NCBI GenBank assembly: GCA_947165235.1
Contig: CAMUZN010000002.1
Span: forward strand, 1 to 61,265
Direction: 5' to 3'
DNA from: an uncultured Mycoplasmataceae bacterium
GTDB taxonomy: Bacteria; Bacillota_I; Bacilli_A; Mycoplasmatales; Mycoplasmoidaceae
Length of the DNA stretch: 61,265 bases
A program made the position numbers and the translations under genes. Positions 50,369 through 52,932 of the stretch are shown piece by piece (position 1 is the first letter of the stretch; every line of letters begins with the position of its first letter). The notes under the pieces are model-generated. The model made no database searches, was not told where the DNA came from, and worked only from the letters and a program-made list of their open reading frames with translations.

Positions 50369-51006
50369 TGGTTTATTTCTTTTAACATTTTTTGATATTG
50401 TTTGTTATAAGACAAATTTTTATTATTGCTAATCATTTTTTCGCTGAAGGAAAGGTATTTTTTTCATGTTAACAAATCTAATTGTTTATTTTTTTGTCCG
50501 AAATATAAATATTTTTTCATGCTAGTAATTTTTGTTTTTTTTTCTTTGGCAACGATAATTTGGTAAAATTTTTTGTTAAAAATCGTTTGCTCTTTTTCAA
50601 TTGAAAATTTATTTTCGTTTAATCATTTTCGAAGAATATATGCCTGCGAATTCGGACAAAAAATAAAAGTTATTTCTCTTTTTATTAAACGACATGTTTT
50701 TAAAATTTTAACAATTGTACTTCCTCCCAAACCGGCAACAACAATATAATTTGGTTTAATTTTTACTTTTTTTGTAATATTTTGCAAACCATTATTAATG
50801 ACATTTGTTGTTTTGTCAATAAGATCATTTTTTAGTAAATTTTTTTTACCATTGTTTAAAGGATTTATTTTATTTTCAATATTAACAACATGGTTAGCAA
50901 TTTTATTTTTCAATATTAAAATTGCTAAAAAAGCATGATCACTACCAATATCATAAACACAATGACAACGATGGATTAGATTAGTAATGGCTTTAATTCT
51001 TTTCAT
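50359..51006 (-). CDS. trmK: tRNA (adenine22-N1)-methyltransferase TrmK
   Basis: SAM-dependent m1A22 methyltransferase, 215 residues. VYDIGSDHAFLAI is the SAM loop, followed by KPNYIVVAGLGGSTIVKIL and FCPNSQAYILRKWL (UGA-Trp). Overlaps rpoD by 14 nt and the Nif3-like gene by 10 nt, indicating a single mRNA. Confidence 0.92.
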
Positions 51007-52342
51007 CCATTACATAACTTCGTAATTTTTCTGATTTTGAAGGATGCTTTAATTTTCGCAAAGCTTTTGCTTCAATTTGACGGATTTCTTCTCGCGGCAT
51101 TTTTAATTTTTGGGCAACTTCATCTAAATTATGTGGGTATGTGTAAGGTAACATACCAAAACGCATTTTAACAATTGTTTGTTCATTGGCTGATAATGTT
51201 GATTTAAACATTTGGGCAACTTGTTCACGTAATAAATTTCCTTTGGTAAATTCGTCTGGTGTTGCAACATCGTCTTGTTTAACAAAATCAAGTATTTGAC
51301 TTTCATCATCGTTACCAACAGTTTTGTCTAACGAAATTGGGTCAATATTTATTTTTTTAATTGTTACGACTTTGCGTGCTGTAAACCCCTTTGCTTGTCC
51401 ACCTAATTCAGTGGTAATTTCATTAATTGTCGGTTGTCGTCCTAAACGTTGTGTTAATTCTTTTTCAGCTTTTACAACATGATTAATCACTTCAACCATA
51501 TGTACAGGAATACGAATAGTTTTTGATTGTTCAGCAATTGCTCGTGTAATTGCTTGTCGAATTCATCATGTTGCATATGTCGAAAATTTATTTCCTAATC
51601 TTCAATTGTATTTTTCAATTGCTTTCATTAGTCCAGATATTCCCTCTTGAACTAAATCATCTAATTCTAAACCGTGGTTTAGAAATTTCTTTGCAATTGA
51701 AGTAACAAGACGTAAATTGGATGTAACTAATTGGTCTTTAGCTAATTGCCTTAGGCGCGGATTTTTATTTTCTAACATTTTCGCTAGATAAATTTCATTA
51801 GTGAAATTTAACATTTTTGACGATGAAAGTAAAGATAGATATGATTTTGTTCCATCGTTAACTTTGTCTTGAGCGGAAAAATTTGTCTCTTGGGCTTTAT
51901 TTATTTTTTTTCTTTTTTGTTTAGAAATAATTTCTTTTGCTTCGTCAAATGTAAATTTTTTTTGCTTGTAATCCTTAATTTTGATTCCGTTTTTAAGGAT
52001 ATTATTAAGCATATCCATTATTTGCTTATCAGTTAAGATGTAACTACTAATTTCATTAAAAATGTTGGCAAGTGTCAAAATTTTGGTGTTACGTTTTTTT
52101 TCTTTTGCGGCTTTAATTATTTTTGCTTGAAGTGCAATTAATTCATCTTTTTTTAAAATTTTATATTTACTTTGTGCAGTCAAAACATAAGAAATTTTTT
52201 CATTTTTTAATTTTGGTGCAATAGCTTTAACATTAGGGGCAATTTTTTTTACCAATTGTCCTTTTGTTTTTTTACCTCTTTTACCTTTTTTTGCTCTTAC
52301 AACTATTATTTTTTTCGATTTTTTTTTTGCTTTTCTTGCCAT
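50993..52342 (-). CDS. rpoD: Principal RNA polymerase sigma factor
   Basis: Sigma-70, 449 residues. A very basic N-terminus ([22 protein letters not shown]) replaces part of region 1. Regions 2.1-2.4 contain [23 protein letters not shown] and [17 protein letters not shown], where both Trp are UGA. Regions 3 and 4 end with the helix-turn-helix [29 protein letters not shown]. It recognises the TATAAT boxes listed here. A TAAAAT ends 6 nt before its own ATG. Confidence 0.96.
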
Positions 52343-52420: not shown

Positions 52421-52684
52421 TTAGAAATACATCCCAATTGTATTACGTAAAGGAAAAGGCGAATAACGGACATAAGCACTTTTTCTACGACGAGCATATG
52501 AACCATAATAATTATTTCGTCATTTTTTTGTTGGATTAATATGATTGTTTTTCATTGTGGCAAGATCAATAATATTATTGGATAAACCAACAAGTGTTGA
52601 AGTAAGAATACCAATTCCCATTGCAATCGTATAGAAAGATCCACCCGAAATTTGTTGCTTTTGTGCTAGTGATAATTTTTTCAT
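52421..52684 (-). CDS. Small peptide precursor with double-glycine leader
   Basis: An 87-residue frame with one UGA-Trp. The first 15 residues, MKKLSLAQKQQISGG, match the double-glycine leader of class II bacteriocins and other peptides cleaved by C39 peptidase transporters (L-S-x-x-x-x-x-x-I-x-GG). The predicted mature part of 72 residues has a hydrophobic, Gly-containing stretch (SFYTIAMGIGILTSTLVGL) and a basic aromatic C-terminus (YYGSYARRRKSAYVRY). AGGA lies about 10 nt upstream. No C39 transporter or immunity gene is in the window. It could be a bacteriocin, a signalling peptide or a surface peptide. Gene reality is supported by the leader and ribosome-binding site. Confidence 0.7.
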
Positions 52685-52745
52685 TTTAATTTTCCTAATT
52701 ATTAAATTGGAAAGAAATTTTTTAAAATTGCGAAATTAGAAAAAA

Positions 52746-52758: not shown

Positions 52759-52932
52759 ATGATTAAAATAAATGTTCATAAATGTATTAGTTGTGGTTCT
52801 TGTTGCCAATCTTGTCCTTGTCAAGCGATTACAATGGTTGACAATAAACCAAAAGTTGATGAAAAAAAATGTATTAGTTGTGGTTCTTGTTGCCAATCTT
52901 GTCCGTTGAAATTAATTAAGTTGAAGGTTTAG
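52759..52932 (+). CDS. Tiny 2[4Fe-4S]-type ferredoxin
   Basis: A 57-residue electron carrier with two identical CISCGSCCQSCP motifs, each the C-x2-C-x2-C-x3-C-P pattern of bacterial 2[4Fe-4S] ferredoxins plus one additional Cys after the third ligand. The two halves are separated by a short QAITMVDNKPKVDEKK linker. Ferredoxins are uncommon in Mollicutes. Its end overlaps the 3' end of the convergent TtcA-type gene by 17 nt. A link through Fe-S chemistry is possible but inferred. Confidence 0.88.
   Translation: MIKINVHKCISCGSCCQSCPCQAITMVDNKPKVDEKKCISCGSCCQSCPLKLIKLKV
52780..52904 (+). repeat. Exact 38-nt duplication inside the ferredoxin gene
   Basis: Positions 52780-52817 and 52867-52904 are identical over 38 nt and encode K-CISCGSCCQSCP. 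The period is 87 nt (29 codons). Ferredoxin halves normally differ, so this indicates recent duplication or gene conversion. Confidence 0.85.

Follow-up and report, generated by a model that had tools for sequence, protein, structure and literature searches.

The window, the whole 61,265-nucleotide stretch that was analysed, carries a small gene on the minus strand at positions 52421 to 52684. Under genetic code 4 it encodes a double-glycine (GG) leader peptide of 87 aa, MKKLSLAQKQQISGG followed directly by SFYTIAMGIGILTSTLVGLSNNIIDLATMKNNHINPTKKWRNNYYGSYARRRKSAYVRYSPFPLRNTIGMYF (translated from 52684 to 52421), and a Shine-Dalgarno-like AGGA can be read directly in the sequence 9-12 nt upstream of the gene (52693 to 52696, minus strand). 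Residue 55 is tryptophan, encoded by TGA at 52520-52522. A reading under translation table 11, in which the ORF stops at this TGA after 54 aa, was ruled out because code 4 continues into a conserved C-terminus; the conserved motif there, YVRYSPFPLRNTIGMYF (52424 to 52474, minus strand), fits the YxRxSPxPxRSxxxM of Mycoplasmoidaceae relatives. Directly downstream lies rpoD (50993 to 52342, minus strand; sigma-70 regions 2, 3 and 4), which is outside the system claimed here, and the other neighbour is a ferredoxin gene (52759-52932, plus strand), from which the peptide gene points away. The initial annotation placed the gene alone between these two neighbours. The position is right but 'alone' is only partly so, as the gene is 78 nt upstream of rpoD in the same direction and the order peptide-rpoD is conserved in relatives of the same genus.

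The leader (52640 to 52684, minus strand) is 15 aa long, ends in Gly-Gly and, according to a leader profile built over 94 sequences, is predicted to be cleaved after Gly15. With leucine at -12, glutamine at -8, isoleucine at -4 and glycine at -2 and -1, it has the GG or GA end, the hydrophobic -4 and -12 residues and the acidic or amide -8 residue that define double-glycine leaders; unlike classical GG leaders, which have a hydrophobic residue at -7, it has lysine at this position. The observation of a small gene with a double-glycine leader in this genome is therefore confirmed. The predicted 72-residue product also has the features first ascribed to it, a hydrophobic Gly-containing segment (residues 16-48; 52541 to 52639, minus strand) and a basic aromatic tail, with a net charge of +9. 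The segment is borderline as a membrane-spanning region (best 19-residue hydropathy 1.55), and AlphaFold2 predictions for three sequences gave a helix at residues 15-48 only, with a pLDDT of about 82 at residues 21-40 and low confidence elsewhere. No match was obtained in a Pfam search of the peptide or in a search of the family profile against solved structures. Two metagenome-assembled genomes of the same genus, RUG13511 and RGIG3423, encode peptides 89-90 % identical to this one, and dN/dS between the gene and these relatives is 0.09-0.11, so the gene is under purifying selection. Further short genes with a similar leader had also been proposed as worth seeking; when every ORF of the 479-kb genome was scanned for the leader pattern and a Shine-Dalgarno sequence, no other convincing one turned up.

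The NCBIfam model NF045747 (MPN313 family) aligns to residues 1-65 of the peptide with 35.3 bits (E=1.1e-8), against a curated cut-off of 100 bits, and on this alignment the peptide is classed as a distant homologue of the family, not as a curated member. The whole leader and the hydrophobic segment align, and GG is also found in the family member of the genome taken to be M. genitalium; the C-terminus of the family is of the FGLTP type, unlike the YxRxSPxPxRS found here. The family name carries no reference to a leader or to C39, and MPN313 is not mentioned in any of the papers searched. A search of the order with the MPN313 model matched 49 of 320 genomes. A profile built from 21 members of the family (A1), all of which match the MPN313 model at E<=0.1, matched 148 genomes at E<=0.1, and the ORFs behind its weaker matches revealed GG-leader peptides, frequently as tandem pairs, in further families of the order. 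Sixteen of these GG-leader peptides were used for a second profile (A2), which matched 234 of the 320 genomes at E<=0.01. Tandem peptide-gene pairs with a layout like that of two-peptide systems were seen at L111:2691-3169, L177:5954-6432, L093, L095 and L125.

Conservation of GG in homologues, on which the initial annotation had made its proposal depend, was borne out. Among 94 site-aligned leaders, glycine occupied -1 in 95 % and -2 in 91 %, and the consensus was L/M/I(-12), S/T/N/D(-11), E/Q(-8), K(-7), I/T/L(-4), G(-2), G(-1), with AG, VG or PG at the cleavage site in a few relatives. The A2 profile and this tally are partly GG-selected, so that the sequences gathered with the MPN313 model, irrespective of GG, are the fairer test; nearly all of the 30 that were read have GG, the exceptions being AG in genome G285 and VG in G240. 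Families differ in the C-terminal part, while 91-95 % of relatives retain the GG. The leader and the hydrophobic segment are common to the A1 and A2 families, and homology is claimed for those parts alone; this also holds for peptides of the Metamycoplasmataceae/Mycoplasmataceae type in relation to the peptide described here. The gene had been considered notable for so reduced a genome. It is real, but not peculiar to this genome, as GG peptides occur in most Mycoplasmatales.

The initial annotation also called for a C39 transporter somewhere in the genome. A single C39 match was found, on contig 1 (C1:102744-103154, E=2e-20), in a protein encoded at L002:8272-10182 (minus strand) with a probable ATT start, and its catalytic Cys, His and Asp are intact, as expected of the same-genome peptidase of a GG-peptide system. 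The nearest NCBIfam is the Mbov_0121 family (NF045998), which the protein matches with 142 bits (E=2e-41), well under the cut-off of 500 bits for membership. Also under this cut-off are the protein of the genome taken to be M. genitalium (249 bits), where the C39 transporter lies at the MG_390 position, and a protein of genus g46 (144 bits). In most genomes, including this one, the transporter gene is followed by a gene for an accessory protein of 118-145 aa with one hydrophobic N-terminal segment; the accessory protein here (123 aa) matches the MAG1140 family (NF045999) with E=0.001, below its cut-off. Thus the C39 protein and the gene behind it match both models of the NF045998 and NF045999 pair, below both cut-offs. 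Two papers mention Mbov_0121, only as an ABC protein resembling a cytolysin transporter. Next to the transporter and accessory genes in this genus are comEC and holA; here comEC is at L002:6359-7468 (minus strand; Pfam Competence, E=5e-14), adjoining the C39 transporter and the accessory gene and followed by a holA-like gene.

Unlike the Mbov_0121 family, the transporter in this genome lacks the nucleotide-binding motifs (Walker A, signature and Walker B) by which peptidase-containing ABC exporters are recognised, and judged from its sequence it is quite likely ATPase-dead. Transporter motifs were checked in 30 genomes (26 aligned proteins and four by pattern). All 30 retained the catalytic Cys, His and Asp, while Walker A was absent in 12: this genome, four congeners, G299, G302, G157, G160 (Mesoplasma-like) and G207-G209 (genus g46). 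Matches to the signature pattern that were out of place in some of the Walker A-less transporters were treated as chance. These Walker A-less proteins, from at least three lineages, all with Cys, His and Asp kept, are encoded at L002:8272-10182, L174, L175, L176, L189, L111, L177, L161, L162, L212, L213 and L214. It is unusual for the ATPase motifs to be lost repeatedly while the peptidase stays intact, and this pattern suggests that what is conserved can be cleavage and not export.

C39 was present in 88 % of the genomes, and GG peptides co-occurred with it. A GG-peptide match was found in 250 of 282 Mycoplasmatales genomes with C39 compared with 9 of 38 without (P=9e-17, a value that ignores relatedness), and in 35 of 39 genera with C39 compared with 2 of 11 without (P=1e-5), the latter being a crude control for relatedness. 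Several of the C39-negative genomes are incomplete; the clearest exception is G154, which is 97 % complete and has a GG peptide and no C39 match. Physical linkage of peptide and transporter was detected in only two of about 30 transporter neighbourhoods, G299 and G302, where the C39 transporter is followed by a membrane protein of about 120 aa, a GG peptide and a second peptide in tandem; in this genome and most others the genes are unlinked. No C39 match was found in the three genomes of genus g2, and in two of them (G212 and G213; L108:2025-2243 and L178:2025-2234) the homologues start at the mature part (MWWN...) with their own Shine-Dalgarno sequence. A leader is excluded in G213 because an in-frame stop lies nine codons upstream. 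In the Spiroplasma-like G165, which has no C39 match, GV stands in place of GG.

These distributions bear on whether the GG is incidental and the product a small membrane protein that stays uncleaved and has nothing to do with the C39 protein. Although the unlinked genes in this genome and the few relatives without GG would fit such a protein, it is a very improbable explanation of the classical leader pattern over 94 sequences, the co-distribution with C39, the operons of G299 and G302 and the loss of the leader in two C39-less genomes. Sequence and distribution point instead to the peptide very probably being a C39 substrate. Counting against this are the commonness of C39, the lack of linkage in most genomes, the exception G154, the few relatives with AG, VG or PG at the site and the lysine at -7. 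The genome's single C39 peptidase-transporter would recognise the 15-residue leader and cut after Gly15, releasing a basic peptide of 72 residues with one hydrophobic helix that would end in or across the membrane. Because its nucleotide-binding domain has lost the ATPase motifs, the transporter is most likely a membrane-tethered processing peptidase and not an ATP-driven exporter. The peptide had been described as secreted, but export is doubtful in this genome since the transporter is without ATPase motifs. The mature peptide would most likely be regulatory and signal-like. Taken as a whole, a C39-matured peptide with an ATPase-less, membrane-tethered peptidase and a probable regulatory role is the reading we consider probable.

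The regulatory part comes from a homologue. A family member was found between a P24-like gene and mraZ, and from this position we take it to be MG_220 of M. genitalium. It has about 24 % identity to the peptide described here and a different C-terminus, so function may not transfer. In a review, MG_220 is equated with RrlA, a transmembrane protein reportedly needed for sigma-20 activation and recombination in M. genitalium (PMC9262362). Given the match to RrlA, a processed peptide could be required for activating sigma-20, which governs recombination and antigenic variation in M. genitalium. A sigma-like ORF of 204 aa is present in this genome at L207:1120-1734; its match to sigma70-ECF (E=1e-4) is under the cut-off, and it resembles MG428, the sigma-20 of M. 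genitalium, only weakly and locally (E=1e-4). By analogy with RrlA, a role that is regulatory rather than antimicrobial or structural is put forward tentatively, at slightly less than an even chance.

A structural micro-protein of the membrane, matured by C39 and serving for example as a membrane-organising or surface component without signalling, seems unlikely. The basic tail adjoins a hydrophobic helix, and leaderless homologues persist without C39, so that the mature part may be able to act from the membrane by itself; on the other hand, the hydropathy is borderline and MG_220 is reported to act on sigma-20 (PMC9262362). Still less probable is an antimicrobial of class II bacteriocin type (a two-peptide type in some relatives) that the C39 transporter would export to act on rival mycoplasmas. 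Class II and IIb bacteriocins share with this family the leader type and a helical, glycine-bearing hydrophobic segment; pairs of peptides occur in tandem in several genomes, and single relatives weakly match TIGR01847 and TIGR03949 (E 0.01-0.02). Unlike these bacteriocins, the peptide is strongly conserved, including its C-terminal motif, and no immunity gene was seen beside it, where the neighbours are rpoD and ferredoxin, or beside the peptide pairs of G299 and G302. Leaderless forms are retained where C39 is absent, loss of the ATPase motifs in the genus makes active export doubtful, and MG_220 is reported to have a regulatory role (PMC9262362). Of the 'bacteriocin-like or signalling' role first suggested, the bacteriocin-like half is less likely than a regulatory one, because the gene has a single copy and evolves under purifying selection and the peptide is a homologue of MG_220/RrlA.

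For a regulatory peptide, the closest parallels are the streptococcal GG pheromones of the ComC/ComAB and BlpC type, which have in common with the system described here a GG leader and a C39 transporter and which, like RrlA, are connected with recombination and an alternative sigma factor; the position of the transporter beside comEC is a further likeness. Unlike these pheromones, the mature part here is 72 aa long with a hydrophobic helix, and the transporter of the genus lacks ATPase motifs. It is conceivable, as a speculative extension, that mollicutes have an ancestral pheromone-like pathway in which a C39-matured GG peptide, with the ATPase working or not, governs an alternative sigma factor together with recombination or the uptake of DNA. 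This would be a wall-less counterpart of ComC-ComAB-ComX, with RrlA as its known end.

C39 peptidase-transporters are near-universal in mycoplasmas. The GG-peptide profiles match 89 % of C39-positive genomes, genus g46 included, and the question of the substrate of these orphan proteins is therefore now testable. The gene order around the g46 C39 homologues is transporter-ybeY-era-recO, which is the order around JCVI-syn3A gene 0401, and on this synteny genus g46 is taken to hold relatives of that cell. A 2019 model of JCVI-syn3A states that mycoplasmas have C39 proteins, gene 0401 of this cell among them, but that no GG peptide had been found for them, and it proposes a lipoyl-related role instead (PMC6609329). 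As no GG peptide was known for mycoplasma C39 proteins according to that paper, the family described here supplies a candidate substrate. For the orphan C39 protein of JCVI-syn3A, a minimal cell, the GG-leader peptides of genus g46 (L210, L211 and L209) offer a possible answer.
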